Of a DNA stretch of 64,000 nucleotides, positions 34,433 to 64,000 are shown piece by piece. How positions within the stretch are numbered: position 1 is the first letter of the stretch; the number at the start of each line of letters is the position of its first letter. The DNA lies in assembly GCF_009649225.1 (NCBI RefSeq), contig NZ_WJPP01000002.1:186001-250000 (forward strand), read 5' to 3'. Made by a program: the position numbers and the translations under genes. Under the pieces are notes generated by a model. The model was not told the DNA's origin. It worked only from the letters and a program-made list of their open reading frames with translations, and made no database searches. This DNA comes from Spiribacter salilacus (GTDB taxonomy: Bacteria; Pseudomonadota; Gammaproteobacteria; Nitrococcales; Nitrococcaceae).

Positions 34433-34444
34433 GAGTAGATGACG

Positions 34445-37568: not shown

Positions 37569-37578
37569 GGGCTAAGCA

Positions 37579-38924: not shown

Positions 38925-38954
38925 TGAATCGTCACATCACTACCGCCTTTGATC

Positions 38955-38968
38955 TGATAAGATTATCA
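38955..38968. promoter_or_regulatory. Palindrome in the phnF-phnG intergenic region, candidate PhnF operator
   Basis: TGATAA (38955-38960) and TTATCA (38963-38968) form a perfect inverted repeat with a 2-bp centre, 31 nt before the phnF start and 26 nt before phnG. A weaker imperfect palindrome, TCTAGTTGTAGA, lies at 38975-38986. GntR/HutC proteins bind short palindromes of this size, so one or both may be the operator. Confidence 0.55.
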
Positions 38969-38993
38969 CAGTTGTCTAGTTGTAGATTTATTA

Positions 38994-42676: not shown

Positions 42677-42691
42677 ATACCGGAGTACTGA

Positions 42692-43369: not shown

Positions 43370-44511
43370 GCCAACCTGAAGTCATTTTTGCCAATGCCAA
43401 GTTGGTTATGCCAACGGAAATCATCACCGGCTCTTTATCAATTTCTAATGGCTTGATTGCCGATATCGATCAGGGCAAAAACATTCCGTCAGGCGCCATA
43501 GACTGTGAAGGCGATTGGATAATGCCCGGGTTGGTTGAGCTACATACCGACAATCTAGAACGCCATATTACCCCGCGCCCTGGCGTAGATTGGCCCCACT
43601 TACCCGCCATTTTGGCGCATGATGCTGAGCTTGCCAGTGTTGGGATTACCACCGTTTTTGATGCACTGCGCGTTGGCTCCATCTCACGCGCGCGGGATGC
43701 CTACGAACCGTATGCCCGCGGCCTAGCTAGCGAGTTACTCAGCCTGCGCGATCATGGTGGACTACGCATCAGCCATTACTTGCACCTGCGCGCAGAAATC
43801 TGCTCAGAAACGCTAACCCAAGAGCTGGCGCAGTTTTTTGATCATGATCGAGTGGGTATTGTTAGCCTGATGGATCACACCCCAGGGCAGCGGCAATTTC
43901 GCGATATCTCACAGTATCGTCGATACATGACCGGCAAGCATGGCATGAGTCATCATGAATTTGATGACTACGTCGAAAGAATGCGCGCACTAAGCCAACG
44001 TTTAGGCCCCACACACCGTCATCAGGCGGCGGTTGAGGCCCGGCGGCTTGGCGCCATCCTGGCCAGCCACGATGACACAACGAATGAGGATGTTGCGGCA
44101 TCAAAAGTGGAAGGGGTGAGCATTGCTGAATTTCCCACAACGCCTGAAGCGGCGCAGGCTTGCCGCCAAGCGGGTATGGCTGTTGTCATGGGGGCGCCAA
44201 ACGTCATTCGGGGTGGCTCCCACTCTGGTAATGTTGCGGCAATTGACCTGGCCAACGAAGGCCTACTCGATATTCTATCTTCTGATTACATCCCCGCCGC
44301 TTTGCTGCTTGCGGCATTCCAGTTAGGGGATAGCTGGGGCAATCTTGCACGCGCTATTGCGTTAATTAGCGAAAACCCGGCAAAGGCCGCCGGCTTAACC
44401 GATCGCGGCAGTTTAACCACAGGGAAACGGGCAGACTTGCTGCGGGTAACCTTACTCAACGGCACACCGCGCGTGCGGCACACTTGGGTCAAGGGCTTAC
44501 GCTCCGCCTAA
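43366..44511 (+). CDS. phnM: Alpha-D-ribose 1-methylphosphonate 5-triphosphate diphosphatase PhnM
   Basis: The 381-residue amidohydrolase removes pyrophosphate from the PhnGHI product before C-P cleavage. Metal-site motifs include IMPGLVELHTDNLERHITPRPG and ILASHDDTT, with SGNVAAIDLANEGLLDILSSDY further on. The ATG at 43366 overlaps the phnL stop; an upstream start inside phnL is unlikely. It is the last gene of the block; phnN and phnP do not follow. Confidence 0.94.
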   Translation: MSQPEVIFANAKLVMPTEIITGSLSISNGLIADIDQGKNIPSGAIDCEGDWIMPGLVELHTDNLERHITPRPGVDWPHLPAILAHDAELASVGITTVFDALRVGSISRARDAYEPYARGLASELLSLRDHGGLRISHYLHLRAEICSETLTQELAQFFDHDRVGIVSLMDHTPGQRQFRDISQYRRYMTGKHGMSHHEFDDYVERMRALSQRLGPTHRHQAAVEARRLGAILASHDDTTNEDVAASKVEGVSIAEFPTTPEAAQACRQAGMAVVMGAPNVIRGGSHSGNVAAIDLANEGLLDILSSDYIPAALLLAAFQLGDSWGNLARAIALISENPAKAAGLTDRGSLTTGKRADLLRVTLLNGTPRVRHTWVKGLRSA

Positions 44512-44687
44512 GCCTTACGTTCTTCTTCGTCTCTAAGTGCGCTGACGCTCTTAGCTGCTGTCTCACGCATCGGTGGTAAACGATTGCGCAACGACGCCCG
44601 TGAGATAAAGGGCACAGCAGACGTTTCCTCGAGTCGCGTGACGGAAGCAAAGTTTTCACGGGCATCTCGGACACTCACCTTTTTCAT
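44508..44687 (-). pseudogene. Internally deleted Phd/YefM-type antitoxin remnant
   Basis: The 59-residue frame starts MKKVSVRDARENFASVTRLE, the N-terminal DNA-binding part of Phd antitoxins. It then jumps straight to AVPFISRASLRNRLPPMRE and ends in VSALRDEEERKA, which is like the toxin-binding tail of the same family. The usual middle (the GEEVVITRRGKPVARL-like strand pair) is missing, so about 15-20 residues appear to have been lost in frame. No toxin gene is next to it. Its end overlaps phnM convergently. It may be a non-functional relic, or a short antitoxin still acting in trans. Confidence 0.6.
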
Positions 44688-44718
44688 TAGCAAACCTCTC
44701 AAAGTGTCATCGTTGGCC

Positions 44719-45135
44719 TTAGCGCCCAAGCTCTGCCTCGGTCAAAAAGCCCAACTGAGCAATGCCGGCCACCTGCGCATCGACCATAAGCTTGGCAATT
44801 CGATCGTAAGTGACGCTTTTATCGGCTTCTAGCAACAAGCGCGCGTCTTCTTCTGCCGCAATTTCCTCAAAACGCACGGCAAGTCGCTCTTCTGTGATGA
44901 TCTCACCATCCAACTCCGCAATTCCATTGCTGCGCAAAGTGAGCCGATAGGGGGGATTTTCTTCTGGATCAGCGGCATTATGCGCTTGGGTGTCGGGCAG
45001 ATCGACCCCTAGTGTTTGGGGCATCATGAGTGGAATAGACACCAAAAACAGCACCAACAGTACAAACATCACATCAATCATCGGCGTCACATTCATGTCT
45101 GTGATTGATTGGTGGTTTGAGTCGCCATAGTTCAT
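44719..45135 (-). CDS. exbD: ExbD/TolR-family biopolymer transport protein
   Basis: The 138-residue protein has one membrane helix (MNVTPMIDVMFVLLVLFLVS) with the essential Asp, then a periplasmic ExbD domain that ends in MVDAQVAGIAQLGFLTEAEL. With ExbB it forms the proton-driven motor for TonB. It overlaps exbB by 4 nt and is the last gene of the giant-exoprotein operon. The Tol set at 27.4-29.4 kb is a separate system. Confidence 0.92.
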   Translation of the reverse strand: MNYGDSNHQSITDMNVTPMIDVMFVLLVLFLVSIPLMMPQTLGVDLPDTQAHNAADPEENPPYRLTLRSNGIAELDGEIITEERLAVRFEEIAAEEDARLLLEADKSVTYDRIAKLMVDAQVAGIAQLGFLTEAELGR

Positions 45136-45797
45136 TGTTCAATCTCCTGCCAGCGAGGGCGATTGTGCAAGACGTAGCGCAACAGCCCCTCTGAGAAGTT
45201 CTCGAGTTGCCCAATATGTTGTCGCACGCGACGACTTGCCATATTAAAGAAAATAACCGCAGGAATGGCCGTTACGATACCGATGGCGGTGGTGATTAAT
45301 GCCCCACCAATAGGAGCGGCGACTACCGTGATGTTTGCTGCACCCGTTTCGCCAATAATTACCAGCGCCTGCATAATGCCCCAAACCGTACCAAAAAGCC
45401 CTAAGAATGGGGCGGTTGAGCTAATGGTAGCCAAGGCATTGAGCCAGCTTTCTTTATGTCGCGCCACCACACCCAGCTTGCGCTGCACCTCTGCTGCCAG
45501 CAGCGTCTGCAGCTGCTCAAACGTATAAGTCGAATGCTCTGGCCCTGAGTACTCGCGACACACTTGTTTGAGCGTTTGTGCCAGATAACTGGCATCTCCG
45601 GCCTCTGAGCCATGACCTACTTCCCGAAAAGCCGACCAATCCATCGCATTGGTAAACGTATTCTCAAGTATTGAGGCGCGGCCGCGTGCAATACGCAGCT
45701 GCAACAACTTAGCTAGCCCAATGGTCCAGGTCAGTGCAGACATTGCCAACAGCGTGACCGTTGTGAGATCAAAAACTAAATCGGATGACATTTGCAT
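45132..45797 (-). CDS. exbB: ExbB/TolQ-family proton channel protein
   Basis: The 221-residue protein has three membrane segments: about residues 12-32, then SSTAPFLGLFGTVWGIMQAL and PIGGALITTAIGIVTAIPAVI, the ExbB signature. It starts 5 nt after tonB. It is distinct from TolQ in this window (229 residues, different N terminus). Confidence 0.92.
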   Translation of the reverse strand: MQMSSDLVFDLTTVTLLAMSALTWTIGLAKLLQLRIARGRASILENTFTNAMDWSAFREVGHGSEAGDASYLAQTLKQVCREYSGPEHSTYTFEQLQTLLAAEVQRKLGVVARHKESWLNALATISSTAPFLGLFGTVWGIMQALVIIGETGAANITVVAAPIGGALITTAIGIVTAIPAVIFFNMASRRVRQHIGQLENFSEGLLRYVLHNRPRWQEIEQ

Positions 45798-45802
45798 ACC
45801 TA

Positions 45803-46546
<744 letters not shown>

Positions 46547-46549
46547 CGG

Positions 46550-47275
46550 TTAACTTTCTTCAGGGCCTTCATTCATGAGCCGAGCCAACTCAGGAAAGAG
46601 ATCCATCGAAATTAAATGGGCATAAATCCAGCCCAAATAACCGGCACGGAATAGCTCATCGGCTGCCTGCGCTGTTATTTTCATCAGCGCATCTTCGTTT
46701 ACACTTAAAAACTGGCCAAGCACAACAGAAGAATCATCATCGCGGGTTACCCGCGCATTCATCTCCTGAAAAAGCCCTAGCTCATCGAGCTTTTTGCCAA
46801 ACGCGGCCGTTCTTAAGAAACCTTGATGGTATTCCTGCATAAACCGAGTGGCATTCTGCAAATACTCGGTTTCTTCACCCTCCTTGGTAAAAATGGCCTC
46901 CCCACCGCGTTTGCGAAGAGCAGAATTTTCCACGCAGATCAAAAACTCATCCTGATCCTCGCCCCGATTGGCCAACACAAACGGATAGCGGCGAATGTAG
47001 GCGGGAATGTACCCCGCACGCCAAGTACCGTCTTGATCAACAAACAGATTCTCGTTATCGCGCATGCCGAGCACCGCCACCGGAATAACTTGGTCTGCAT
47101 TGCGGGTAAAAACAATCGGGAAATGCCGGCACGCCTTGGCAAATTCAATACCGGTTAATACCACCGAGTTAGTCTCACGGGTAAACCCGTAGTCTTTCGG
47201 GGCGTTGACCTTCATGGTTTTATGTTCTTCGCGATTTAACGCAACCGGCTCATTGTAAAACAGCAGCTCAGCCAT
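46550..47275 (-). CDS. SapC family protein
   Basis: The 241-residue protein matches the SapC family (PF07277 type): MAELLFYNEPVALNREEHKT at the start, then CRHFPIVFTRNADQVIPVAVLGMRDNENLFVD and AGYIPAYIRRYPFVL. No signal peptide or membrane helix is evident. The name comes from the S-layer gene cluster of Campylobacter fetus; the molecular role is unknown. It begins 42 nt after the stop of the giant exoprotein with AAGGA ahead, no terminator between, and 3 nt before tonB, so all belong to one transcript. Confidence 0.9.
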   Translation of the reverse strand: MAELLFYNEPVALNREEHKTMKVNAPKDYGFTRETNSVVLTGIEFAKACRHFPIVFTRNADQVIPVAVLGMRDNENLFVDQDGTWRAGYIPAYIRRYPFVLANRGEDQDEFLICVENSALRKRGGEAIFTKEGEETEYLQNATRFMQEYHQGFLRTAAFGKKLDELGLFQEMNARVTRDDDSSVVLGQFLSVNEDALMKITAQAADELFRAGYLGWIYAHLISMDLFPELARLMNEGPEES

Positions 47276-47317
47276 TCTTGCTTAATCCTTTAATCACTCT
47301 AATTTAAGGGGTAGATA

Positions 47318-50300
47318 TTACTGCTGTTCGCAGTCTTCGTCATCTTCATCAATGCACTCATCGACGCCGTCTGCCGCAAGCTCACCCACCTGCACGCTCG
47401 CAGTCAGTAGGCCGGTCGTGCCCGCACCGGCCGGATTGAGTGGGCTATCGCCCGGTTTAGCGCCGCGAATACGGGCCAGAGCCTGACGTGCTAACTCACG
47501 CTCAAAGTCTATACCGACTGGCGGCTCATCGCTGATCACGGGCACAAAGAATCCGTCTTGGCTACCCGTTACCACCGGCGCGGCAAACAGACCGATCGCA
47601 GGCGGCGTTGGCACGGTCAGCGCGCCCGGTGGTGGCGGATCACCTTCGCCACCAACATCCCGCGGGATCAGTACGCCCTCTTCGTTTAAGACTTGGCCGG
47701 TTCGGTATTCCGTTTCGCCATCGGCCAAGCGCGTGGTGCTGGTGTCAAAGACAATATCCCAACCGTAGACCACTTGATCACCCGCCGTCGCAATCTGGCC
47801 CACTTCTTCACCAAAGCGCACCTCACCGGGGAAGCGGTCTTGGTCTGCACGACGATCTCGATCTAAGAGATTGCCAACGCGTGCTTGGCCATCCTGTACA
47901 CCGGTTTCTGCGGTAAAGTGCAGTAGCGGATCAGTCTCACCAATGCTGCCTTCAAACACAATTTCAGGTCTGACAAAGCCACGGCTGCCCCGCTCTACGG
48001 CAGACAGCGCATAAGAGGCAAGGCTGTGCGTACGTCCGCCCGGTTGCGCATCATCAATCGTATCGAGGAAGCGAATAGCCGGGTCAACGGATACCAACAA
48101 ACGCATTAGGCTGCGGCCTTCTTCTGCTCCAATACGCACGGCACCTCGGTAAATCTGCTCTTCAAAGGTCGTGATATCACCGTTCAGGTTGATTTGCTCA
48201 CCAATTACCTCAAAGCGATAAGGGCTGGTGTGCTGCTGATCAAACGCACTCCAAGCGATGCGTGAGGTGCTCTCACGCAAATCAGCATCCACCGCACCGG
48301 AGGCACGCACGTCTTGGCCCACCTGACCGCCCACACTCACCGTACCTGTGCCTGCATCAATTAATACCGAGCGCTTGGTGGCCTTAGCATTAATGCCTGC
48401 TGAGATGCCGCCGTTAAACGCGATATCCGCGTCTTCTGTGGTGAACTCAACCGGCTGCAGCTTCAAATAGCCGTCGCTGTTTTCATCGTAAACATAGTGA
48501 TGAAGCGGTAATTCCTCACCCATCTCATCGGCCCGCACGGTGCGCTCTTCTTCTGCCAAGGAATTAACAACAATGTCGTTAGTTTCAGAGACTGTATAAA
48601 GCGCACCGCGAATCTCAGTTGTCGTTTCCACCGGTGCCGTATCTTCTGTGCCTTCGTCGGTACCTTCTTCGGCATCCTCATCGCCCTCTTCAGGCTCTAC
48701 CGGCACATCAGCCACAATCAAATCGTGAACAAAGATATGCTCGCCCCCAGGGCCTTCAATTTCTCGGTAAACCTTTTTATTGCCCTCATCATCTTCTTGA
48801 ATAAAGAAGGCATTTTCGACCCCATCGATGGTCTTGGTAATGCGGTTGTAAACCGTATTGCCTACCTCACCGGTTGCCGTAATTAGGCTTGCCTCGTGGG
48901 TTTGCTCTGCGGTGGTGTGCACATCGCTTGCAATGCGCAGGGTGCCGCGTGTAATGAGGCTTGCCAGCTTGGCGGCGGGTTTGCCGTTTTCGCCACTAAT
49001 GTCAAATTCCAGCGTACCGCCGCTGCCTTCAACAATTGGGGCGGTACCCAGTGCGTTGGCATGGGTAATTTTTAGGGTGCCGTTGTTGGTATCAACCGTG
49101 CCATTAAAGTTCTCGTTAACCACCGACAAGGTCAGCGTATTTTCGCTAATCTGCTCTAGCCGGCCGCCGCCGCTTAGGGCGTTATCAAAGTCCAGCTCGC
49201 TTTCCGAGAAATCTAACTGGATGGTGCCATCAATCTGCAGATCTGAGTCGGTATCGCCAAAGTTATCGCGGTCATAAACCGTTAGCGCTTCTTCAGGAAT
49301 AATCACCTTAGCAACGTTGGCCTGACCGGTATCAGGGCTGTTATCGGGCGTGGCGCCATCGGCCCAGTTCAGTGAGTTAGACCACCGGCCTTCATTATCA
49401 CCCACCCAGGTGACCGACTCGCGCTGAGTAATCTTGCCTTGGTTGTTGTTAAACTCCTGCGCGCCCAGCGTATAGTTGCCCGCATCCGCACCGCTTAGGC
49501 CCAGCGTTAGGTTAACCTGCTTGTTTTCACCCACATGACGGGTATCGAAGCTGCCCAGGCCACTCAGTGCCGCCTGATCGCCAGCCAAGATCTCAGTGGG
49601 CTGATTCTCAACCACCAGGTCGTTGATGCTGGTATTGCCATCATAGACTTTCTCAGTAATGCCAAAGTCAAAATTGCTAGGCACATTCAGCACAATTGGA
49701 TCAACCGTTAGTGCGCCCTTCACGCGGATGTCATCAAAAATCTCTAAGTCATCACGCACTGCCGTGAAATCACGCGCGGCAATGTTGTACCCACCCACTG
49801 CCAGGTTGCCAGAACTACTGAATTTAGCAGTTTCTTCCGAAGCACCCAGCGTAAAGGCAATACCCTTGCCTTCTGAAACATCCTCTAGGGTGACGGCATT
49901 GCCGTTAAGAACAAATTCGGTGTTCTCAATGGTCTGCACATTACCGTCATCATCCAGGTACTGGGCCGACTGATAGTCATAGACCGCATCATCGCCATAG
50001 TCTTGCTGGGCAGAAATTTCGGTACGCAGCAGCAATACATCGGCACCAAGAATCTCGTAGTCACCCGATTCATAAGCAATCTCGTAGTTATCTGCGGCTG
50101 CACCTGAAACTTCGAGTACGCCCTCGTAAACGCCAACGGCTTCTTCCGGATCACCCGTGCCCTCGGCGGCCACGCGCGTAATGGTTGGCAGTGAGCTTAA
50201 ATCGCCCTCACCTTCGCCGGTTACAAAGCCGTTATAGAACACCCCAGCGTAGTTTGCTGGATCGTCCTGCCCTTCGAGCTTGGCATCATCAGCCGCCCGA

Positions 50301-53300
50301 ATTGCCAGCGCACGCTTTTCAATGGTAACCGGGTTAACCGCATTGCCATTATCCGTCTGCAGCGAGCCAAAGCTCAGCGTGATGGAGTTGTCACTGTTCG
50401 TTGTTTGGGTACCGGGCAGGCTGTAGTTGCTCAGCAGACCGCCAAAGCCATCTTTTAGACGAATCTCTTCAACATAGTTAGTGCCATTATCAGAAACATT
50501 TTGGAGCGCAGATTTACCGCTCGAAGAATCAAATGTTTCGCCGTCAACAATGTTGCCAAATACCAGTTCTTCCGTCTTAAACAGCAGTGTTGAACCATCA
50601 TAAATTTTGGTCACACTAATCGACTCAATTTCTCGCTCGGTTATCGAACCCGTTGTTGTGAGCGTGTCCGTGTCGAGCTGATAGTCGGTGACCATCGAGC
50701 CGTTATTGCTGTCGATTTCAGAAAGCGCCAGGCCCTCTACCGTGAGCGTGTTGGCCTGGAGCACATTTTTGCTGTTAAAGAACGCCTGGCCGCTATCCAC
50801 GGTAAAGCCGAGCGAGGCCAGTGCATCACTGGTCAGGCTGTCACCAGTCAAAAAGCCATCGGTAATCGTGAGCGATGGTGCAAAACCGGTGGGTGCGGCG
50901 TTGCTGCCGTCATAAATCTTGGTGACATCGGTGTCATTCAGCTCTACCGTCAGCGTCTTCGGCGTAATCGTTACCGGGGCGATGTCGGCATCAAAAGCCC
51001 CATTGTCATCCGACGGCAGGCGGTAGTTATTCAGATCGGCAGCGACCTCACCGCTTGCCAAATCACTGGCATCCACCGCCTTAAGGTCGATATTCAGGAT
51101 GAAGTTACGCTGGACCTCGCCCTCGGGTGAGGTGTTGATCACATTGGCGAACGAAGCCTCGGCGTTTTCGTAGTCGATCACCTCGCCGTCAACACCGGTG
51201 CGCAGGGTCACGTAGCCATCAAGGTCGGTGTTGCCGTCATAGACCTTCTCGGCCGACACCTCGAGGGTGCGCGGGTTGATCTGGGCGTCGGCATCTACAA
51301 CGGTGTAAGCGTAATTGCCGGCATCAGCGCCTTGCAGCAGATTGTCGAAGACAACCTCGTTATTTTCTGTCACATCCTCGCTAAAGAAGGCACCGGTAAT
51401 ATCCGCCGGGGCGGTGGCGGTCACCTCATCCAGGGCCAGGATCAGGCCATCGCCGCTGTTGGCCTCGGCCAGCTCAACGGTACCCGGAATTTCAACCTTG
51501 CCGGTAAAGAGTGCCTTGGTGGTGCCGTCGTACTCACGGCTGGTTGCCACAAGCGTACTATCTAGCGTGATCGTTTTCGGATTGATGGTGAGCTGACCGC
51601 CCACCTCAGTGGCGTAACCCAACTTGTTGGCAATGGCTTCGGCCACGTCTAGATCATAGGTGCCGGCGGCTTCAAAGCCTGCGCTCGATACCGGAATCAC
51701 GCCATTGGGGTTGTCTTCGGTAACCCGCGACGGCGTGGTCCACTCAATATCATCAAAGCCCTCGATATCGGCCGTAGTATCGCCATTCTGCAGGCCGATG
51801 ACTGTCGTGCCGTAGTCGTTGCTATCCCCGGCGTCCGGCAGGGCCTCGGTGTAAGTGATGATGTTGCCGTTGGCGGTCACTTCGAGCAGCGGCTGTTCGC
51901 GGTAAACGGCGTTCAGCCCCGTCGCGTCCAGCGCCGTCCAGGTGGTCGCGTCGGTGAAATCGGCAGTTTCATCGGCGTTGTAGCGGAAGCGCCCGGTGCC
52001 CTGAGCCATCACGCCGTCAGCCGCGCCGGCCGCGGTCTCAACCAGCCCGGTGCTGCCCGCAATGCTACCGGTGTAGATCACACCGCGGCCCGCGCTGACA
52101 TCAATGCCGCCGCCATCGGCAATCACAACATTGTCATCGCTGCCCAGCGTGTTGGTGCCGTCAACAAAGGCCGTCTCATGAACATGATCGCTGCCGGCGT
52201 TGAGAATCAGCGCGCTCAAGGCAGTGCTTGTGGTATCCACCATCTGCGATAGGGTGATATCACCCGTCTGCGTCTGGATATCTAGATCTCCACTGGCCGT
52301 AATGCCATTGAAGTCACCCACGCTGCCAATCTCGATCGCCTGGCTGTTGTTGAGGGTCAACGCGCCGATGCGGTTGTCCGCGCTGCCCGCCGCGATCAGA
52401 TCGATGGCGTTGTCCGCGTGATCAAGCGTGAAGTTGCCGCTGCCCTCCAACGCCAGCACCTCCAGCGTCATCGCGCCGGTTTGGGTGACGGCGCCGCTGC
52501 TATCCAGGGTCAGCTGCTGGGTGCCGGTCTCGGCATTGCCTACCGCCCCATTCAAGGTGATGCCGCCATCCGCCGTGTCCAGCGTCACATCGCTGCCCGT
52601 GATCTTGAGATCGCCGGTGTAGGTCTGATCATCCTCGGTGGTGATATCGCCACTGAGCAATGTGGTGCCGCTGCCCACATCCACGCTCAGCGCAAAGGTC
52701 TCGCCAGCCCCCGCTGGGCCCACCGCCCCGGCGGTGATGTCTTGACTGATGGTGAGGTCGGCATCCGACAAGGTCAGGCTGATATCGCCGGTTGACAGAA
52801 TGCCGGCCTGGGTATCGACCGTACCGATGGTCAGTGAGATGTCATTGCTCAGCGTCAGCGCGCCAATGCGCTCGGCCTCGCTACCGGCGGCCAACAGGCT
52901 GATCTGATTACCGGCATTGTTCAGGGTGTAATCGGCGCTGCCCTGCAGGGCCAGCTCATCAATCTCAAGCGCACCGCTGTGGCTGACTGCGCCATCGGCC
53001 ATCAGCGTCAGGCGCTCGGTATTTTCCGCGCTGGCCGTATTGCCGGTGAGGGTGATGTCGCTATCCGCGCTGTCGGTGCCCTTGGCTTCCAGGGTCACAT
53101 TATTGGCAACCACAACATCATGGCTGCCGGCTTGATCGCCGCTGTAGGTCTGATCCCCCACACTCGTGATGTTGGCATTCAGCGTAATCACGCCAGCGCT
53201 GCCCGTCTCAGTGAGGGTCAGTGCGCTGGCGCTGGCGCTTTCGGTGTCGATCGTCTGGTTGACGATCAGATCCGCGTCAGCAGAGGTAAGGTCGACATCG

Positions 53301-56300: not shown

Positions 56301-59300
56301 AGGCGCTCGTCCGTGCCGGTGGCATTGGTCATCACACTGGCAAAGGTGATGTCCGAGCTACCCGCATCCATCACGGTATCGGCAATCATCTGGCTGGCGC
56401 CGGTGACGGTTTGGCCACCCACCGAAGTAATCGTCGCGCCGAGCTCTATGACGCCGCCTGTTGCGCTGGTCTCAAGCGAGAGTGCCGATGCCGAGCTGCT
56501 GTTGGCCTGGATGGCGTTGCTGACGGTGAGCTTGGCACCACTCGTCTCCAGATGAATATCGCCATCGGCCAGAACGCCGCCGGCACCCACTTCCATGTCG
56601 CCAGCGCTGACGATCGTCAGTGCACCCACCGGCGCATCCGGCGTCACACCCGCCACCAGCCAGCCGATGTCGTTGCCGGTGTTGGTGAGTGTGAAATCGC
56701 CGGTGCCTTCAAGCACCAGCTCATCCACCGCCATGCTGTTGGTCTGCGTGACCGTGCCGTCAGTGATCAAAGTGAGGCGCTCGGTACCACCCGATGCGTT
56801 CGTCATCGCCCCGTCAAAGACAATATCGGCATCAAGCGTGTCGGTCCCCACGGCATTCAGCGTGGTATCTGCCATCATCCGGGCGCTGCCGGTGTAGAGC
56901 TGATCACCCACGGAGGTGATATCGGCACCGAAGCGGATTTCACCGCCGCCGGTCGCCTCAAGCGTCACGGCGCGGCCGGTGCCAGCGCTGTCGTTGGCAT
57001 CGCTCTCGGTGTCTATCGCTTCGTTGATCGTGAGGTTAGCGCCGGTGCTGGTCAGATCCACAACCGATGTGCTGTAAATGCCGGTAAAGCCGCCCGCGGT
57101 GCCCACCGCCATATCACTGTTGCTCACAATGGTGAGACGGCCGGTGCGGTCAACAGCCGTGCCGGCTGCCAGCACCCCGATTTCGTTGCCGGCGTTCTCC
57201 AGGGTGAAGCCGGCCACACCCTGCAGGGCAAGCTCGGCCACCTTGATTGGCGCGTTGGTCATCTGCGTGACGCCCTGCGGCGCAATCAGGCTCAGCCGAT
57301 CATCCATGTCTTGGGAGGTCACTGCCTTTTCGAAGACAAAGCCCGTCGTGGCCGAATCCAGTGTGATATCACTGGTCAGCGTCACCGTATCCTCGAACGT
57401 CGGGATGGGCGTCGTTACGCCATCAACTTTCTCTGAGAGCCGGCCGCCCTCAGTGTAGATATCCGCGCCCAGGATGGCCGCGCCTGTCACCTTCAGCTTA
57501 TCGATGCGCTGATTGCCACCGACCGTGCCGGCCAGCGTGAGCGTGCCAGTGTTATTGAAAGTGAGCGCAGAGAGGGGCTCGGGGCCGACGGACTGCGTCT
57601 CATTGATGAAAAACTCATCGATCGTGCCATTGAAGACCAGATCACCCGCGCCGCTGTCAAAGGTCGTGTTGCGCGGCAGGGTAATATCACCATTGATGGT
57701 GGTCGTGCTGTTGCCCTGGAAGGTGACGGTCTGATCCGTTGCCGAGCGCGCAGGGACCGTGGGCTCTGGCTGCTCTATGACATTGCCTTCGTCGTCTGTT
57801 ATCGGCTCAGGCAACCCGGCGATGTCCGGCTGCCCAACCGCAAAGCCACCATCGAAGGTGATATTGCCATCGGCCTTGATCACCGAGTCCGGCTCAACAA
57901 ACACATCACCGCTCAACGTCGAGCTGCCGGTGCTGTTCAGCAGTGCGCCCGGATTTTCGGCCGTACCGTCGTCATCGCTATCCACACCCGCGCCGGCCAG
58001 TGTCAGGTCGTTTGTAATGCTTTTGCCATTCAGATCCAGCTGGGTGCCGTCATTCACGGTCACATCGCCGGTGCCGAGCGCACTATTTGCGCCGACTTTC
58101 AGCACCCCACCACTGATCGTCGTGCCATCGGTGTAGGTGCTGCCGCCGGTCAGTGTCAGCGTGCCGCTGTTGAGCTTGGTCAGGCTACCGCCAACAAGAT
58201 CTCTGTTTTCATCCGTGTCCACCGCCACAATATCCGCTGCCAGCGTGAGCGCATCGCTGCGATCAATGAGCAAGGCTGCACCCTCAGACAACTTAATCTG
58301 GCTGCTGCCAATAAAGCCGGTCGTGCCCCCATCACCCAGCTGCAGGCTACCGGCCTGAACGGCCGTCGTGGCGGTTGTGCCCGTACTGTTACCGGTGAGC
58401 ACCAGGGCGCCATTACCGGCCTTGGTCAGCCCGTTGGCCAGTGTGAGCGCGCCACTGATCGTCGAGCTGCTGCCGCCGATATCGGCGGTCATGTCGTCTG
58501 CATCGGCATCGCCGGCCATGGTGAGATCGCCACTGGCGGTGACATTCAGCGTCTGCGCGGTGACATTGCCATCAAGCTGAACATTGCCATCCTGAGCGGT
58601 GATGTTCACCACGGAACCCGTGCTATCCGCCGGGCCGGCACTAATGGCATCGGAGAAGGTGATGTTTCCGGCGGTTGCCAGGAAGTTGGCAGTGGCCGGA
58701 TTGATTGTGACGGCGCCGCCGTAGCTCTGGTTGCCCGCGGTGGTAATGTTCGCGTCAATGGTGGCGGCGTGTTTAATATCCAGCGCGCTTAGCGCGGTGT
58801 TGCCGCCGACTGCACCGTTCAGCGTCAAGCCACCGTCATTATCCAGCGTCAGCACACTGCTGCTGGCACCTGCCGCGGCATCAATGGCGCCGTTAAACGT
58901 GAGACTTCCGACGGTGTTGTTAACCGTGGTGTCGGCGTCGATGGACTGAGCGCCGTCAACGACCACATCGCCGTCACCAGTGAAGGTCAGCGCCATGGCC
59001 GTGCCCGCATCCTTGGCTTGCAGCGTGCCATTGAGCGTGAGATCGCTGGCCGCATTAATCGTGGTGGTCGCACCCAGCGCGATATTGCCATCCAGCGTGA
59101 CCGCCGAGCCGCCAACCACCAGCGCGCCGCCATCGCTCATGCCACTGCCGGTAAGGGCAAGATCATTGGCGATCGAATTGCCATCGAGATTAAGCGCGGC
59201 ACCGTCGTTGACCGTGACCGTGCTGGTACCAAACGGCCCGTCGGTGATGCTGCCCGCGCCACCGGTGGTGGCGCTGCCGGCCTTGAGCACGCCAGCGTTC

Positions 59301-62300
59301 ACCGTGGTGCCGCCGGTGTAGGTGTTGGTGCCGCTCATCGTCAGCGTGCCGGCGCCAGCTTTCACGATGTCGCCGGTGCCGGTGATGTCACCGCTGATCA
59401 CGCCGTTGTTGCCGTCTGTGACGATGTCGAGGCTCAGCGTGTTACCAATATCCAGTGTGGTGCCATTGACGGTTTGCAGGCCGCCCAGTGTGGCGTCACC
59501 TGCGATGGTCAGTGCACCATCGGTCATGTGCAGACGGCTGTCATTCAGGTCAGTGCCCGCATCGGTATCGGTGTAGGTGAGCGAGTCGATCTGTACCGTG
59601 CCGGCCTCGGCGAGTCCGGAAAGCGACGTGTCATCGAACGTGACTGTTTCGCCCTCACCAATCGTCACGCTGGCGACGTTGGCCAGATCTGGAACAACGC
59701 CATCCACCCAGTTATCCCGATCAAACCAGTTGCTGCCATCGCCATCGCCAGACCAGGTTGCAGACTCGGCCCGCGTGATATCAGCCGTGGATGCGGTGTT
59801 GAAGTAGACGTTGCCGACATCCGGTGAGCCGGCCGCGGTGTCTTCCTGATGCAGTGCATTGGTGTTATCAAACGCGATTCGGTAGTTGCCCGCGTCATCA
59901 CCCGCCAGGCCGACACTGCCGATGGTGACATCCTTCCCGGCGCCGACGTTCTTGTCGTCGAAGGTGACCGTGCGATTAATCTGCAGGTCATCGCCCTTGA
60001 CCATGCCGTAATCAGGATTGGGATTATCGAAGGAGACCTCGACGGTGCCATCAGCGTCACCGTCATAGACCTTGTCGTTGGCGGTAAACGTGATATCAAG
60101 CGGGCGCTGGTAAATAATGCCGTCAGAGCCCGAGATCGCACCGATGCTGCCCGGGATGTCGTAGTTGGAGATGTCCGTGCTGCCATCGCCGGAAATATCC
60201 AGCGGCTCATCGGCCGTACCAGCCAGGGTGTAGCTCACGTTCTCACCGGCATCTGCCGAGTCAAACGCGCCCACGCCGCCAGTCACGGTAATGCTCTCGC
60301 CACTCACCAGCCCGGACTCGGCTTTTCCGGACACCGCATCCAGGGAGACCGAAATCTCTTCCGTCATCGCCGTGGTGCCGTCGTAAACCTTGGTCACGCC
60401 ATCACCCTGCACCGACACCGGACGCGGTGTGATGCGCGCCTCCACCGAGGCCGAGGTGTTGATGCTGTAGTCGCTGATCTCAGAGCTGACCGTAGAGCTT
60501 AGCCCAATGTCACCAGTGTCGGAGAAATCCACAAGCAGCTGTGCCGCATCGCTGACATTCGCCGTTGCCGTGTCATCAGCGCCCGCATAGAACATCGTGA
60601 CATCAGCCACGTCGATGGTGAACGTATCTTCGCTCAGCGCGTTGGAGAACAGATACTGCGGCGTAAAGTCAGCATTGGCGCTGGTGCCATCACCCACCTT
60701 GGCATCGGACGTGCCATCGTAGACCTTGCTGACGTCACTATTGGTCAGGCTGATGACCAGCTCGCGCTGATTGATCTTGAGGTTGTTTTCCTCAGCGTCA
60801 TGCGTGAGTGTCTCGGCCGTGCCGGCAACGAGATCCTGACCCCGGATCTTATAGTTGCTGACCAGACCAGTGCCGTCAGAGAAGGTGATCGAACTGATGT
60901 GGTGCGCATCACCCGCGCGGGCGCTGCTGCCCGTGGCCGAATCGATCACCAGCGTCTCGCCCTCAACGAGCCCTGTCGTGTCCTCTTCACCGCTAATCGT
61001 GGTCAAATCAATGGCGGTGGCATTCACTGTGGCCGAGCCGTCGTAGGTCTTTTCGGCCTGAATGGCGAGCGCCCGGCGAGCAATATCCACCTGGTTGTCG
61101 CTAGAGCGGCCCGAGAGATCCGGCAGCTTGTAGTTGCTGGCCTTACCGCCGTTAGTGCCATCACTTAGCTGCATGGCGGTGACGTTGCGATTGCCAGCAT
61201 TGGGGCTTGAGAGCGTGACGTCGGCCTGCTCAAGCGTCTGACTGTCAACCAGATTACCGAGGGTAATCGTTGCCGTGTTCTGGCCGTCGTAGACCTTGCT
61301 GGCGGAGAGCGTGAGCTCACGCGGAGTGATGCGGGCGTTACCCACAACATTCACGGCACTGGCCACCTGATTAGTTCCGGTGCTCAGGTTAGTGGGCATC
61401 AAGTCATAGACGCCCACATCCAGATGCTCGTCCGGCGTTGATGCGGTACGTGTACCCGCATCCGGGGCTTTATCTTCCGCGATATCAAACGAGAGCGTCT
61501 GCCCACCGACGCCGAAGTCAAACGTGTTGCCGCCCGCATCCGTCAGGCTGACGGAGTCCACGCTCGCATCAGCGACGCTGTCGACCGTGACCGTAGTATT
61601 CGTCCCATTGCCATCACCGATATCCGCGGAAGCCGCGGTGAAGTCTCCGTCGCCCGTGACATTGCTCAACTTCACCGTCGTCGTACTCGCACCGGTATCC
61701 TCGGTAACGTCAACGACCAAACCAGAGAGACTGCCCTGAGTGAGGGTGTCGCCCGACTTCACCCCGGTGCCTGTACCGTCGATCACCAGCGACTGGTTCA
61801 CATACTCGGCGGTGACATCCGATGGCGTGTAATCCCGGGTGTCGCCGTAGATGAACTCCGGTGTGGTGTTGGTCGTCACCAGCAGCTCATTGGCTGGAAC
61901 GATGGTGAACGTGCCTTTCTTCTCGGTCACGTTGTAGTTTCCAAGGTCCAGCGCGCCACTGGTTTGCGTGCTGTCGGTGTTCAGGTTCAGGTCATAGACG
62001 CCGACCTGATTGCCGGTGACCGCGCCATCCTCACTGCTGCCTTCATTAGCGCGATCCAGCGTCAGCGTACCGATTTCATGATGCGTGTTCTGCTGAAGAT
62101 CAACAGACCCAGTCTCGGTACCGGGCACAAGGAAAGCCTTGCCCGCAGTAGTGCCATCAATGGTTACGGTCGCACCTCCTCCGTCGATATAGGTATCGCC
62201 GTCCTGCAGCACGACAATCGCCTCGCCTTCGGCAATGCCGGAGAGGGTGATGCCATTGAATCCATCCGGATCATCCGTCTCGATGGAGAACTTGGCGTCA

Positions 62301-64000
62301 TTGTTCGCCTTGATCAGCAGATCGCGGGCGTTGACCGTAAGGGTTTTGCCGCTGGTATCGGCATTGATCTTGTAGCCGAGCGCCGACTCGCTCACTTCGT
62401 CCGCCACCAGGTCGTAGGTGCCGACGTCGAAATAGGCCGTGCCGTTAGCATCTGGAACAACCTCTGTGCCCGAGTCTTTCACCGTGATCGCGTCGCCCAC
62501 ACCTGGAATGGCCTGGGCCAGGCTGTCGCCATTTTGGGTGTTGCCATCGCGGAGTACCGATAGCGAGGGATTTTCACCGTAGGTGATGGTCTGGCTTTCC
62601 GCCGAGATCGAGATCTCCGGGCGCTCACGGAACACCGCGTAGATACCACCGCCCAGGCCGGCGCTGAAGCGCGTCGTCGTCTCATCACTGCCGTAGCGGA
62701 ATCGGCTTGAGCCCCACTCGACCAGCCCGTCACCGGCGTCATCGCCTGACTCAACCAGGTTCTGGCTATCCCCGTCCGCGATGCTCAGCGCTCCGGTGTA
62801 GAGCGTGGCTCGGCCACCCTGGCCAATGGTGACGGCATTCGGTGCATCCGTGGCAGTAATCTGAATGTCGCCGCCGGTGTCATTATCCGGCCCCGGCACA
62901 TTGTCGTCGTCAGAGATATCCACATCACTGCCGGCATTGAGCACAACAGCCGTCGCACTATCGCTGTCGGTGGCAATGGCCTCGGCAATAATCAGATCAC
63001 CGGTCTTGGTGCTGATGTCGATTTCGCCGGTAGCGGTAATGCCTGTGGGGTTCACGTCACCGATGGTCAGCGCGCCATTATTGACAAAAGCGAGGCTGCG
63101 GAGCTTGTTCTCGGCCGAGCCGCCCGCAAGCGTGTCGACCACGTTACCGGTGTCATCCAGCGTGAAGTCACCCGTGCCGTAGAGCGCGAGCGTGGAGGCA
63201 TCAATGGCCGCCGACTGATCCGCGCTGGTGCGCGCATGCAGGTGCAGCTGGTGGGCATCCTCACCAGCGCCCGCGTCGTTAATGGTCAGCGCGCCATCAA
63301 TATCCAGCTCACCGGCGTAAACCGTGAGCGTGTTATCCAGGGTCAGCGCACTGTCAATCTCAATGGCCGCGGCCTTGCCGTCCTGGCCGAGTACCAGGCC
63401 GCCCTTGATCTCGCCGAAGGTGAACAGGCTGGTTTCAAGCGCATTGCTGCTGGTGGAGCTGCTATTGAAGTCCGCCGTCGCCGGCTGGATGCGCAGCTCG
63501 CCATCGCCAGAGAAACTGGCACTATCAGTCATGCTGTTCGGGTCATCATTGGCCAGAATCAGCGTGCCACCGGCGATTGTGGTTGCGCCAGTGTAGGTGT
63601 TATCGCCCGCGAGCGTCAGTGTGCCGCTGCCCTGCTGGGTGAACGTATTGCCCGCGCTGGCCGACTCGGTGATATTGCCGACGATCTCACTGTCGTTGCC
63701 GGTCAGATCCACAGTCAACGTGTAGTCGGTAAGGCTGATGCCCTCGGCGGTCAGATTGTCTGCCGTTAGGGTCGTATTAGCACCCAGCGTGATGTCGCCG
63801 CTGTAGGACTGATCCCCCCCGGTTGTGAGAATGTTCCCACCGTTAATGGCCACCGTGGCGCTGCCCTGGCTGCGCAGGGAGGCGGCGGTCACCGCACCGT
63901 CAAAGGTCACCGCACCCGTGCTGTCCAAGATGATGTTATTGAGCGCCTGGCTACCGCCGATAGCCTGATCAAAATTGATATCGCCACTGCCGGTCTGGAC
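47318..64000 (-). CDS. Giant repetitive surface exoprotein, FHA/two-partner-secretion type (N terminus beyond window)
   Basis: The frame is open for 16.7 kb and continues past the right edge: at least 5,560 residues. Order from the edge: autotransporter-type beta-strand repeats (GTLTLAGDNTYTGATTIAGG, about 63.6 kb); FHA-like repeats; a linker with RFRY...YREQP; MBG/YDG repeats (62.5-60.0 kb); ESATWSGDGDGSNWFDRDN (59.75 kb); more beta-strand repeats; about nine FHA-like repeats (57.3-52.3 kb); a second RFRY...YREQP linker (52.0-51.9 kb); MBG/YDG repeats (51.6-49.6 kb); a second WVGDNEGRWSNSLNW (49.4 kb); then a non-repetitive C-terminal region. There is no beta-barrel, so it is not a classical autotransporter. 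The acidic end holds CIDEDDEDC. It is rich in Thr, Asp, Gly. Two-partner secretion is inferred: the secretion domain and a TpsB partner would lie outside. Confidence 0.85.
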   Translation of the reverse strand, partial: VQTGSGDINFDQAIGGSQALNNIILDSTGAVTFDGAVTAASLRSQGSATVAINGGNILTTGGDQSYSGDITLGANTTLTADNLTAEGISLTDYTLTVDLTGNDSEIVGNITESASAGNTFTQQGSGTLTLAGDNTYTGATTIAGGTLILANDDPNSMTDSASFSGDGELRIQPATADFNSSSTSSNALETSLFTFGEIKGGLVLGQDGKAAAIEIDSALTLDNTLTVYAGELDIDGALTINDAGAGEDAHQLHLHARTSADQSAAIDASTLALYGTGDFTLDDTGNVVDTLAGGSAENKLRSLAFVNNGALTIGDVNPTGITATGEIDISTKTGDLIIAEAIATDSDSATAVVLNAGSDVDISDDDNVPGPDNDTGGDIQITATDAPNAVTIGQGGRATLYTGALSIADGDSQNLVESGDDAGDGLVEWGSSRFRYGSDETTTRFSAGLGGGIYAVFRERPEISISAESQTITYGENPSLSVLRDGNTQNGDSLAQAIPGVGDAITVKDSGTEVVPDANGTAYFDVGTYDLVADEVSESALGYKINADTSGKTLTVNARDLLIKANNDAKFSIETDDPDGFNGITLSGIAEGEAIVVLQDGDTYIDGGGATVTIDGTTAGKAFLVPGTETGSVDLQQNTHHEIGTLTLDRANEGSSEDGAVTGNQVGVYDLNLNTDSTQTSGALDLGNYNVTEKKGTFTIVPANELLVTTNTTPEFIYGDTRDYTPSDVTAEYVNQSLVIDGTGTGVKSGDTLTQGSLSGLVVDVTEDTGASTTTVKLSNVTGDGDFTAASADIGDGNGTNTTVTVDSVADASVDSVSLTDAGGNTFDFGVGGQTLSFDIAEDKAPDAGTRTASTPDEHLDVGVYDLMPTNLSTGTNQVASAVNVVGNARITPRELTLSASKVYDGQNTATITLGNLVDSQTLEQADVTLSSPNAGNRNVTAMQLSDGTNGGKASNYKLPDLSGRSSDNQVDIARRALAIQAEKTYDGSATVNATAIDLTTISGEEDTTGLVEGETLVIDSATGSSARAGDAHHISSITFSDGTGLVSNYKIRGQDLVAGTAETLTHDAEENNLKINQRELVISLTNSDVSKVYDGTSDAKVGDGTSANADFTPQYLFSNALSEDTFTIDVADVTMFYAGADDTATANVSDAAQLLVDFSDTGDIGLSSTVSSEISDYSINTSASVEARITPRPVSVQGDGVTKVYDGTTAMTEEISVSLDAVSGKAESGLVSGESITVTGGVGAFDSADAGENVSYTLAGTADEPLDISGDGSTDISNYDIPGSIGAISGSDGIIYQRPLDITFTANDKVYDGDADGTVEVSFDNPNPDYGMVKGDDLQINRTVTFDDKNVGAGKDVTIGSVGLAGDDAGNYRIAFDNTNALHQEDTAAGSPDVGNVYFNTASTADITRAESATWSGDGDGSNWFDRDNWVDGVVPDLANVASVTIGEGETVTFDDTSLSGLAEAGTVQIDSLTYTDTDAGTDLNDSRLHMTDGALTIAGDATLGGLQTVNGTTLDIGNTLSLDIVTDGNNGVISGDITGTGDIVKAGAGTLTMSGTNTYTGGTTVNAGVLKAGSATTGGAGSITDGPFGTSTVTVNDGAALNLDGNSIANDLALTGSGMSDGGALVVGGSAVTLDGNIALGATTTINAASDLTLNGTLQAKDAGTAMALTFTGDGDVVVDGAQSIDADTTVNNTVGSLTFNGAIDAAAGASSSVLTLDNDGGLTLNGAVGGNTALSALDIKHAATIDANITTAGNQSYGGAVTINPATANFLATAGNITFSDAISAGPADSTGSVVNITAQDGNVQLDGNVTAQTLNVTASGDLTMAGDADADDMTADIGGSSSTISGALTLANGLTKAGNGALVLTGNSTGTTATTAVQAGSLQLGDGGTTGFIGSSQIKLSEGAALLIDRSDALTLAADIVAVDTDENRDLVGGSLTKLNSGTLTLTGGSTYTDGTTISGGVLKVGANSALGTGDVTVNDGTQLDLNGKSITNDLTLAGAGVDSDDDGTAENPGALLNSTGSSTLSGDVFVEPDSVIKADGNITFDGGFAVGQPDIAGLPEPITDDEGNVIEQPEPTVPARSATDQTVTFQGNSTTTINGDITLPRNTTFDSGAGDLVFNGTIDEFFINETQSVGPEPLSALTFNNTGTLTLAGTVGGNQRIDKLKVTGAAILGADIYTEGGRLSEKVDGVTTPIPTFEDTVTLTSDITLDSATTGFVFEKAVTSQDMDDRLSLIAPQGVTQMTNAPIKVAELALQGVAGFTLENAGNEIGVLAAGTAVDRTGRLTIVSNSDMAVGTAGGFTGIYSTSVVDLTSTGANLTINEAIDTESDANDSAGTGRAVTLEATGGGEIRFGADITSVGDQLYTGSARMMADTTLNAVGTDTLDADIVFDGAMTNASGGTERLTLITDGTVTQTNSMAVDELVLEGTGDFTLTNTGNDIGWLVAGVTPDAPVGALTIVSAGDMEVGAGGVLADGDIHLETSGAKLTVSNAIQANSSSASALSLETSATGGVIELGATITSVGGQTVTGASQMIADTVMDAGSSDITFASVMTNATGTDERLTLITDGAVTQSSGSLTVNELALQGTGSFTLNQTNNGIGLLAAGASDQRVSALTLVNSSDIEIGTVGSQNGIFAAGAVDLTIDGAALTLTQAIDAESRFQNDGTEIDGSVSLTATGTTGVAKLAADITSERDQQYTGAMELTGDVVMDAGTADIDFNGVMTNAASNTERLTVITSGDVTQSGGSLDVDEMALQGNGGNFTLDAAGNQISLLAAGAPTPSDAENSLSVGTLSIVNGAAMEVGTVGTQNGIFAGGDISLTVNGEDLTVSQAINTTSETTQANDSANAITIANTGGASNINAGITAPGDIEFTGTTHITGATVATQANEAGDNIANITISGDGGSLDSGARIETDEGTIALSGDSITLTNSASAIETTSGAITVSGNGFTLNDSAELKSDTGVVTFSGANAAVAGAATVETDSSAISFTGTGATVKGGATVKTTSSDITFSGADAAIKAGVETSSGDVILSGGNTALNGGTVTTASGDIDVTGSLNMTGDGTLEATSGTIAMDAAVTNDSSGTETLTLITNNAVTQADTDGVAVDELALQGTGTFTLDDADNEIWLLAAGIQADASADPEVLEQRTGALTIANTGDMTVGTISSTQSGILANGAVDLSVAGGVLAINQAIETQNTFDDSGTAVAGTLSLTATGVTATGVSGLIELAADLDSGAKQTYTGNTELTGDVAMDAGDGDIEFAGNMTNDANGTEVLSLTTNGTVTQSGTMAVDGLALRGTGDFIFDQAGNQVTKLAAGVPEAEIEDPDNAEQNITVPAERIGQLTLNNVSALELGSVTTIVDGEPDTVSGITASGAVSMAVTGASLTIDEAIDTTNTISLSTSDAALTVNDTINTTDDTTSALALTTSGTGGVIELGADITTVGDQSVSGDSKLIADVTLNATGAGSAPGDISFTAGDMSNLADGTLPSKERLTLVSGGTVSATGAMVIDELALQGTADYTLDNAGNQISLLAAGREAERIGTLTVANTTTALEVGTLGSQSGIYATGDVDLTSADADLIVNQTIDTESASASALTLTETGSAGVITLNANITSVGDQTYSGDQAGSHDVVVANNVTLEAKGTDSADSDITLTGNTASAENTERLTLMADGAVSHSGALEIDELALQGSADYTLNNAGNQISLLAAGSEAERIGALTLSNDISLTIGTVDTQAGILSTGDISLTLSDADLTISQDITAGAVGPAGAGETFALSVDVGSGTTLLSGDITTEDDQTYTGDLKITGSDVTLDTADGGITLNGAVGNAETGTQQLTLDSSGAVTQTGAMTLEVLALEGSGNFTLDHADNAIDLIAAGSADNRIGALTLNNSQAIEIGSVGDFNGITASGDLDIQTQTGDITLSQMVDTTSTALSALILNAGSDHVHETAFVDGTNTLGSDDNVVIADGGGIDVSAGRGVIYTGSIAGSTGLVETAAGAADGVMAQGTGRFRYNADETADFTDATTWTALDATGLNAVYREQPLLEVTANGNIITYTEALPDAGDSNDYGTTVIGLQNGDTTADIEGFDDIEWTTPSRVTEDNPNGVIPVSSAGFEAAGTYDLDVAEAIANKLGYATEVGGQLTINPKTITLDSTLVATSREYDGTTKALFTGKVEIPGTVELAEANSGDGLILALDEVTATAPADITGAFFSEDVTENNEVVFDNLLQGADAGNYAYTVVDADAQINPRTLEVSAEKVYDGNTDLDGYVTLRTGVDGEVIDYENAEASFANVINTSPEGEVQRNFILNIDLKAVDASDLASGEVAADLNNYRLPSDDNGAFDADIAPVTITPKTLTVELNDTDVTKIYDGSNAAPTGFAPSLTITDGFLTGDSLTSDALASLGFTVDSGQAFFNSKNVLQANTLTVEGLALSEIDSNNGSMVTDYQLDTDTLTTTGSITEREIESISVTKIYDGSTLLFKTEELVFGNIVDGETFDSSSGKSALQNVSDNGTNYVEEIRLKDGFGGLLSNYSLPGTQTTNSDNSITLSFGSLQTDNGNAVNPVTIEKRALAIRAADDAKLEGQDDPANYAGVFYNGFVTGEGEGDLSSLPTITRVAAEGTGDPEEAVGVYEGVLEVSGAAADNYEIAYESGDYEILGADVLLLRTEISAQQDYGDDAVYDYQSAQYLDDDGNVQTIENTEFVLNGNAVTLEDVSEGKGIAFTLGASEETAKFSSSGNLAVGGYNIAARDFTAVRDDLEIFDDIRVKGALTVDPIVLNVPSNFDFGITEKVYDGNTSINDLVVENQPTEILAGDQAALSGLGSFDTRHVGENKQVNLTLGLSGADAGNYTLGAQEFNNNQGKITQRESVTWVGDNEGRWSNSLNWADGATPDNSPDTGQANVAKVIIPEEALTVYDRDNFGDTDSDLQIDGTIQLDFSESELDFDNALSGGGRLEQISENTLTLSVVNENFNGTVDTNNGTLKITHANALGTAPIVEGSGGTLEFDISGENGKPAAKLASLITRGTLRIASDVHTTAEQTHEASLITATGEVGNTVYNRITKTIDGVENAFFIQEDDEGNKKVYREIEGPGGEHIFVHDLIVADVPVEPEEGDEDAEEGTDEGTEDTAPVETTTEIRGALYTVSETNDIVVNSLAEEERTVRADEMGEELPLHHYVYDENSDGYLKLQPVEFTTEDADIAFNGGISAGINAKATKRSVLIDAGTGTVSVGGQVGQDVRASGAVDADLRESTSRIAWSAFDQQHTSPYRFEVIGEQINLNGDITTFEEQIYRGAVRIGAEEGRSLMRLLVSVDPAIRFLDTIDDAQPGGRTHSLASYALSAVERGSRGFVRPEIVFEGSIGETDPLLHFTAETGVQDGQARVGNLLDRDRRADQDRFPGEVRFGEEVGQIATAGDQVVYGWDIVFDTSTTRLADGETEYRTGQVLNEEGVLIPRDVGGEGDPPPPGALTVPTPPAIGLFAAPVVTGSQDGFFVPVISDEPPVGIDFERELARQALARIRGAKPGDSPLNPAGAGTTGLLTASVQVGELAADGVDECIDEDDEDCEQQ
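49630..51545 (-). repeat. Second MBG/YDG-type repeat array of the giant exoprotein
   Basis: Five (K)VYDG/EYDG/IYDG motifs lie at about 51.53, 51.24, 50.91, 50.60 and 49.64 kb. A longer MBG-like unit (ALAIRAADDAKLEGQDDPAN) sits at about 50.05-50.3 kb. Units are about 80-110 residues, Ig-like beta domains by family. They alternate with a GADAGNY-type end motif. Confidence 0.8.
52380..57180 (-). repeat. Array of about nine ~500-bp FHA-like repeats
   Basis: The block LALQGTG.FTL...N.I.LLAAG...R.GALT recurs near 57.17, 56.65, 56.17, 55.66, 54.60, 54.04, 53.40, 52.88 and 52.39 kb. Each unit carries further parts: GI.A.GD.DL, then GDQTYTG, then TERLTL...G.VTQ. The copies at 52.88 and 53.40 kb are nearly identical in DNA over about 100 bp. 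This is a right-handed beta-helix rod by family. Confidence 0.8.
54840..55280 (-). repeat. Short ~22-residue beta repeats inserted in the FHA-like array
   Basis: About six to seven units of the form TSSGDITFSG....A.VET lie in tandem (for example TTSGAITVSGNGFTLN, TDSSAISFTGTGATVK, TTSSDITFSGADAAIK). They break the 500-bp period between the copies at 54.60 and 55.66 kb and explain the wider gap there. Confidence 0.75.
60050..61310 (-). repeat. First MBG/YDG-type repeat array of the giant exoprotein
   Basis: Five (K)VYDG/TYDG motifs at about 61.29, 61.05, 60.72, 60.38 and 60.06 kb mark units of about 80-110 residues. More divergent MBG-like units precede them up to about 62.5 kb. The layout parallels the second array at 51.5-49.6 kb. 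Confidence 0.8.

Follow-up and report, generated by a model that had tools for sequence, protein, structure and literature searches.

In the window analysed here, a stretch of 64,000 nucleotides (C11:186001-250000) of the Spiribacter salilacus genome (2.24 Mb, 18 contigs, 99.99% complete), the gene for a giant exoprotein is followed by genes for a SapC-family protein, TonB, ExbB, and ExbD. We consider it rather probable that this run represents a TpsB-TpsA-SapC two-partner secretion (TPS) cassette that immediately precedes the single TonB-ExbB-ExbD set detected in this genome, whereby the motor itself would have a housekeeping function. In this best-supported reading SapC, and not the motor, is the meaningful partner of the giant.

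The Giant Gene and a TpsB Gene Precede SapC and the TonB-ExbB-ExbD Genes

The giant protein, TpsA, comprises 11,782 aa from an ATG start at C11:268666; the TTG start at position 63928 in the ORF list of the window is an effect of the window edge. The earlier note had suspected a TpsB-like partner beyond the right edge and had proposed to read past position 64000 for a TPS domain, and both were found there. The TPS domain PF05860 is located near the N-terminus of TpsA (118.4 bits at C11:267800-268552; E 6.8e-32, residues 39-289), and the gene of a 587-aa TpsB protein ends 5 nt upstream of the TpsA gene. TpsB matches PF03865 at C11:268900-269784 (E 1.5e-29) and aligns with CdiB (6wim, residues 38-548, E 5.5e-26) as well as with TpsB4 (2mhj, E 2.4e-11). 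The exoprotein thus shows the N-terminal TPS domain, and its cognate TpsB the POTRA and barrel parts, that characterize two-partner secretion. Within the three pieces of TpsA that were scanned (8,559 of 11,782 residues), PATR, glycine-rich, and YDG domains were detected. Judged from its genes, the giant is a TPS exoprotein with an adjacent TpsB partner, and its secretion is predicted.

Since TpsB ends 5 nt upstream of the giant gene, the complete run consists of six closely spaced genes in the order TpsB-TpsA-SapC-TonB-ExbB-ExbD (Table 1), which start behind metB after a gap of 132 nt. The distances are 42 nt between TpsA and SapC, 3 nt between SapC and TonB, and 5 nt between TonB and ExbB, and ExbB and ExbD overlap by 4 nt; coordinates and Pfam matches agree with the five leftward genes that had been described for the window. 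It had also been stated that the genes are not separated by a terminator, and this held. The region 44400-48000 contains five terminator-like sites, all on the minus strand and all within coding sequence, compared to a mean of 4.0 in shuffled sequence, which is chance level, and a consensus scan of the same region for sigma-70-type promoters gave no minus-strand promoter-like site. There is no convincing internal promoter or terminator in this region, including one that would isolate tonB, which the earlier note had named as a finding that would speak against its reading. As had been noted as well, the unit contains no TonB-dependent receptor. The GC content is uneven across the run (TpsA 60.2%, SapC 49.2%, motor genes 50.8 to 57.7%, joined stretch 56.4%), which is no proof of transfer.

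Table 1. Genes of the run that lie in the window, and the Tol genes as context (positions are those of the window unless a contig is named).
Gene product	Length	Position	Strand	Evidence or remark
ExbD	138 aa	44719-45135	-	PF02472, 81.7 bits, above cut-off
ExbB	221 aa	45132-45797	-	PF01618, 97.6 bits, above cut-off
TonB	247 aa	45803-46546	-	PF03544, 68.1 bits, cut-off 24.6; long Glu-Pro repeat and TonB_C domain
SapC-family protein	241 aa	46550-47275	-	PF07277, 236.8 bits, cut-off 28.9
TpsA exoprotein, 3' part of gene		47318-64000, on to C11:268666	-	One open frame, one stop
TolQ-TolR-TolA-like proteins		27454-29437	+	Context, outside the unit; the genome's other motor of this superfamily

At 33536-44511 lies a group of genes, most of them on the rightward strand, that is convergent with the motor genes. 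It looks like a group of phosphonate uptake and C-P lyase genes, whereby the Pfam scan covered the last ABC and amidohydrolase genes of the group.

The Motor Looks Like the Only TonB Motor of the Genome

The TonB_C, ExbB, and ExbD domains all lie above their Pfam cut-offs (PF03544, PF01618, and PF02472). ExbB aligns with ExbB 5sv0 (E 3.4e-22), and ExbD aligns with ExbD 6tyi and keeps the Asp of the transmembrane motif. The equivalog cut-offs of NCBIfam were missed by both proteins: ExbB reached 122 bits with the exbB model (cut-off 206.2) and 135.1 bits with tolQ (221), and ExbD reached 64.8 bits with ExbD_1 (152.95) and 81.9 bits with tolR (127.3), so that the TolQ and TolR models outscore the exbB and ExbD_1 models, all of them below cut-off. 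By these scores, the motor is a divergent set, and the names ExbB and ExbD were chosen on account of the adjoining TonB gene and the separate location of TolQRA.

PF03544, the model on which the genome-wide count of TonB proteins rests, matched twice, namely the TonB of the window and the TolA-like protein of the Tol cluster; a second, housekeeping TonB, as would be expected next to a private motor, was not found by this genome-wide search. The ExbB query matched the window ExbB and the TolQ-like gene and none other in the genome. From these matches, TonB-ExbB-ExbD looks like the only TonB motor of the genome. One Plug and one receptor barrel were found, both in one gene away from the unit, which we take by resemblance to be BtuB-like; it is followed by genes presumably for a substrate-binding protein and a permease. 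Since no other TonB set was found and the gene of the BtuB-like receptor lies elsewhere, an ordinary client is available to the sole motor, which probably serves this vitamin-uptake receptor. In nine of the 13 other genomes of the genus, one Plug match exceeds the cut-off; G017 has one weak, fragmentary match, and three have none (G011, 84% complete; G016, 87%; G019, 86%). G017 and G019, both 86% complete, are the two other genomes with the motor, and since neither has a receptor Plug over the cut-off, the pairing of motor and receptor was not seen there.

In G017, the Orthologous Motor Genes Occur Without the TPS Cassette

Of 54 genomes of the order, three carry close ExbB orthologs (E 1e-40), and at E 1e-45 these were found, among 369 genomes drawn from the class, in the own genome only. 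In G017, which belongs to the same genus, the orthologous tonB-exbB-exbD genes occupy the same chromosomal spot, flanked by metB and tol-pal, and neither TPS nor SapC genes accompany them. The order there is metB, three small LysE-like, AbrB-like, and PIN-like genes, then TonB, ExbB, and ExbD, followed by cpoB-pal-tolBARQ. G017 is the one ortholog able to show a linkage of the motor to TPS or SapC (the G019 contig begins inside TonB), and the linkage is not kept in it. In G012, metB adjoins cpoB; the region read there contains no match to the window TonB, and the genome's own TonB_C match lies elsewhere. Queries with TpsB1 and SapC gave no tblastn match (E 1e-8) in 13 genus loci around tol-pal or exbB, some of which are cut by contig ends. 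As a small control, eleven genus tol-pal loci (207,726 bases) contained no ORF of at least 2,000 aa.

The genome harbors a second TPS pair, a TpsA of 7,853 aa in which the TPS domain is matched twice and a TpsB of 602 aa, which is likewise located on C11 beyond the right edge (89166-114540 in window-based numbering). It lies between aspS and a DUF192-like gene, which are adjacent in G012 and G014. Because the matching regions of the relatives are without TPS cassettes, two such cassettes appear, from this comparison, to have been inserted in one region, whereby we infer the direction of change from G012, G014, and G017.

SapC Recurs Beside Giant Genes of Different Export Routes

The genome contains three SapC genes. 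Inspection of the window SapC by eye revealed neither a signal peptide nor a membrane segment. A PDB search gave no convincing relative (best E 0.34), and the literature matches listed included none that links SapC with TPS, giant proteins, or adhesins. The taxonomic family yielded 11 SapC matches, and 10 neighbourhoods were read (all except G008), nine of which contain TPS or SecA/HlyD genes, the exception being C1. TonB-ExbB-ExbD lies beside SapC in only one of these ten, the window copy.

The public survey covered the best 80 of 595 SapC relatives, found via one peptide pattern, with tblastn on the flanks. As a best-scoring set obtained with one pattern, these 80 loci lean towards SapC proteins like that of the window, and several flanks are short (e.g., L049 with 3,296 bases). 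A TpsB, a SecA, or an ORF of at least 2,000 aa was found near SapC in 18 of these best 80 of 595 loci, comprising seven with TpsB, seven with a SecA-like/M50/HlyD cluster, and four otherwise with an ORF of at least 2,000 aa. The remaining 62 of the 80 show none of these in the flank covered; one of them, L102, contains an open ORF of 1,597 aa with a LEPR-XLL motif. Counted singly in the same best 80 of 595, SecA, M50, and a second HlyD adaptor of the type found on C15 occur in seven loci each, and ORFs of at least 2,000 aa in 14, whereby the near end of the large ORF lies within 900 nt of SapC in 9 of these 14 and the large ORF of L079 stands tail to tail with SapC. ExbB/ExbD were found nearby at only one of the best 80 of 595 loci (L066, Caenimonas); there, ExbB/ExbD are followed by a receptor-like ORF, and SapC is separated from ExbB by ORFs on the opposite strand, so that this locus is no tight operon. 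The TonB query and the query with the outer-membrane channel of C15 matched none of the 80. A conserved SapC-TonB pair, which was considered as a candidate, was rejected on the basis of this single occurrence. Receptor matches lie in the flanks of only 3 of the best 80 of 595 loci (L066, L089, and L099), and therefore the outcome that the earlier note had named as speaking against its reading, a SapC-motor set usually linked to ordinary receptors, was not seen either. The repeatable link is that of SapC with giant exoproteins, more often than with TonB.

A SapC tree was built from 58 sequences hand-picked from those at hand and labelled by hand. TPS-linked and LEPR/SecA-linked copies cluster in it, with 13 changes versus a shuffled mean of 22.2, and none of 200 shuffles was as low as 13; close kinship alone could give such clustering. 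The nearest relatives found for the window SapC come from SecA/M50/HlyD or SecA/HlyD clusters of the same genus, and in the tree it falls into one group (100/100) with the copies of G018 and G019, both of which belong to SecA-type clusters. Since the window copy groups with these, SapC is found within one genus beside both kinds of giant, TPS and SecA-type.

One such SecA-type cluster is present in the own genome on C15 (L007, C15:8000-27000, positions 154-9589), with giants at C15:17681-49972 and C15:50333-81634. Here the gene of a 10,763-aa giant precedes SapC, and SapC is in turn followed by genes for an outer-membrane efflux-type protein, a pair of HlyD-type adaptors, an M50 peptidase that includes a biotinyl-lipoyl-like part, and a SecA-like protein. 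Beyond this cluster, another giant ORF (at least 10,433 aa) extends off the contig end. The LEPR-XLL model (NF012209) matched all three non-TPS giants tested (L102, L088, and L105), and the motif was recognized by eye in L091, L112, and the C15 giant; LEPR-XLL is named in the excerpt of PMC10868602. In another genome of the class, L187 (8218-18811) carries TpsB, TpsA (2,383 aa), a 243-aa protein, and SapC in one row, an order that closely parallels TpsB-TpsA-SapC of the window.

Proposed Function and Alternative Explanations

From this anatomy and neighbourhood we infer the following steps. TpsA would use the Sec pathway at the inner membrane and TpsB at the outer membrane, with no part played by TonB. 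SapC would be a cytosolic helper that maintains the giant substrate in an export-competent state or hands it over to its export route, and TonB-ExbB-ExbD would energise the BtuB-like receptor, whose gene lies outside the unit. The motor genes and the cassette may be co-transcribed, and the two parts need not act together. By its neighbourhoods, the small SapC seems to be a helper that recurs with giant exported proteins. A wider version, which we regard as tentative and rather less likely than not to be correct, makes SapC a route-independent cytosolic helper for TPS giants and LEPR-XLL giants alike and would even allow that the motor of the window energises the TPS step. In this version the LEPR-XLL giants carry an N-terminal motif and no obvious signal peptide, and the machine beside them, in which a SecA-like ATPase is combined with HlyD-type adaptors and a membrane M50 protease bearing a lipoyl-type arm, is little described; in two loci of the taxonomic family it is accompanied by an outer-membrane channel gene.

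Several observations speak against the housekeeping reading or the helper role of SapC. The 42-nt and 3-nt spacings around SapC suggest co-transcription, possibly favoured by selection, no receptor passed the cut-off in G017 and G019, and 62 of the best 80 of 595 SapC loci have no TpsB, SecA, or ORF of at least 2,000 aa in the flank covered. Moreover, the TpsB-ExbB2-ExbD2-TonB4 genes of P. aeruginosa show a TPS-TonB link elsewhere, according to the excerpts of PMC2729926, PMC4971064, and PMC7035377. The earlier note had called the motor private and had proposed that it may act on the exoprotein or on a TpsB-like partner in export, surface assembly, or release. Besides the tight spacing, the missing internal terminator, and the missing receptors in G017 and G019, this has precedents. 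In P. aeruginosa, pdtA and pdtB (TPS) adjoin exbB2-exbD2-tonB4, a putative TonB system called "still uncharacterised" in PMC7035377, and one promoter serves phdA, pdtB, exbB2D2, tonB4, and PA0696-PA0701 in a single transcript (excerpt of PMC4971064). TPS and ExbBD homologues are also associated with PUMA3 homologues in other bacteria of a 2009 list (excerpt of PMC2729926). Among the matches listed in our TpsB survey (80 loci from 68 genomes, own family left out, several truncated, e.g., L149 with 3,089 bases), ExbB and ExbD lie within about 9 kb of TpsB in four loci (L185, L203, L210, and L212) and directly behind TpsB in one (L210), a TonB profile match was found in one (L185), and SapC in one (L187), whereby longer TpsA genes would hide a trailing SapC. 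In L210 (8464-14828), TpsB is followed by ExbB, ExbD, and two genes named by eye, the first for a proline-rich TonB-like and the second for a porin-like protein; this row resembles the P. aeruginosa pdtB-tonB4 unit. A TPS-TonB layout is thus rare but recurring. However, a private motor was rejected as the leading reading because the set is the only one found and the BtuB-like receptor elsewhere needs one, and because the G017 ortholog lacks an adjacent TPS. In addition, the PF07715 Plug matches the receptor only and not TpsB, and gene order and companions are unlike those of the Pseudomonas unit. Energised secretion of the giant is therefore unlikely here; the PUMA3 precedent and the lack of a receptor over the cut-off in G017 and G019 leave it some small probability.

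Two further explanations can be regarded as variants compatible with the housekeeping reading. The tonB-exbB-exbD genes could be placed on the TPS transcript for regulation only, so that nutrient uptake and surface coat would increase in parallel but without any mechanical link. The shared strand and the close spacing are consistent with this, as is the adjoining group of presumed phosphonate genes. In P. aeruginosa PUMA3, TPS and TonB genes stand under one phosphate-responsive control, according to the excerpt of PMC7035377. On the other hand, no Pho-box-like match was found in the 132 nt between metB and TpsB (L005 contains five such matches versus 1.46 expected, all inside TPS genes), and we consider this regulatory coupling unlikely. 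Somewhat less doubtful, though still unlikely, is a chance junction, in which tonB would have a separate promoter within sapC and the cassette landed in front of tonB. The stretch just upstream of tonB does differ between the two genomes in which it was readable, with TPS-SapC here and AbrB/PIN-like genes in G017; the absence of a minus-strand sigma-70-type promoter-like site in 44400-48000 argues against it.

Under the housekeeping reading, close spacing by itself is not enough to make a TonB system the private motor of an adjacent gene. To our knowledge, unfolding control and export of proteins of 5,000 to 12,000 residues is an open problem, and a small, apparently soluble SapC that recurs beside giant genes whichever the exporter would offer a concrete handle on it.

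Comparison With Known Systems

SapC shares its family name, PF07277, with SapC of Campylobacter fetus, after which the family is named; the likeness drawn here is one of name. The C. fetus sapCDEF genes have a role in type I secretion, and the export route of the window giant differs from this. In the excerpt of PMC4943207, the conserved portion of the S-layer locus consists of sapCDEF. The TpsB/TpsA pair beside TonB-ExbB-ExbD resembles the P. aeruginosa PUMA3 (Vre) locus (pdtA / phdA-pdtB-exbB2-exbD2-tonB4-PA0696), in which, as far as the excerpts describe it, TpsB is immediately followed by ExbB-ExbD-TonB and a porin-like gene, with an ECF sigma factor in control. In contrast, the order of the window is TpsB-TpsA-SapC-TonB-ExbB-ExbD, with no porin gene in the unit, and thus differs from the PUMA3-type layout. 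The closest likeness in the secretion part is to two-partner systems of the FhaB/FhaC and CdiA/CdiB type, with which the window shares the N-terminal TPS domain and an adjacent TpsB that aligns with CdiB; unlike in these, the exoprotein comprises 11,782 aa, and SapC follows directly behind it, then TonB-ExbB-ExbD.
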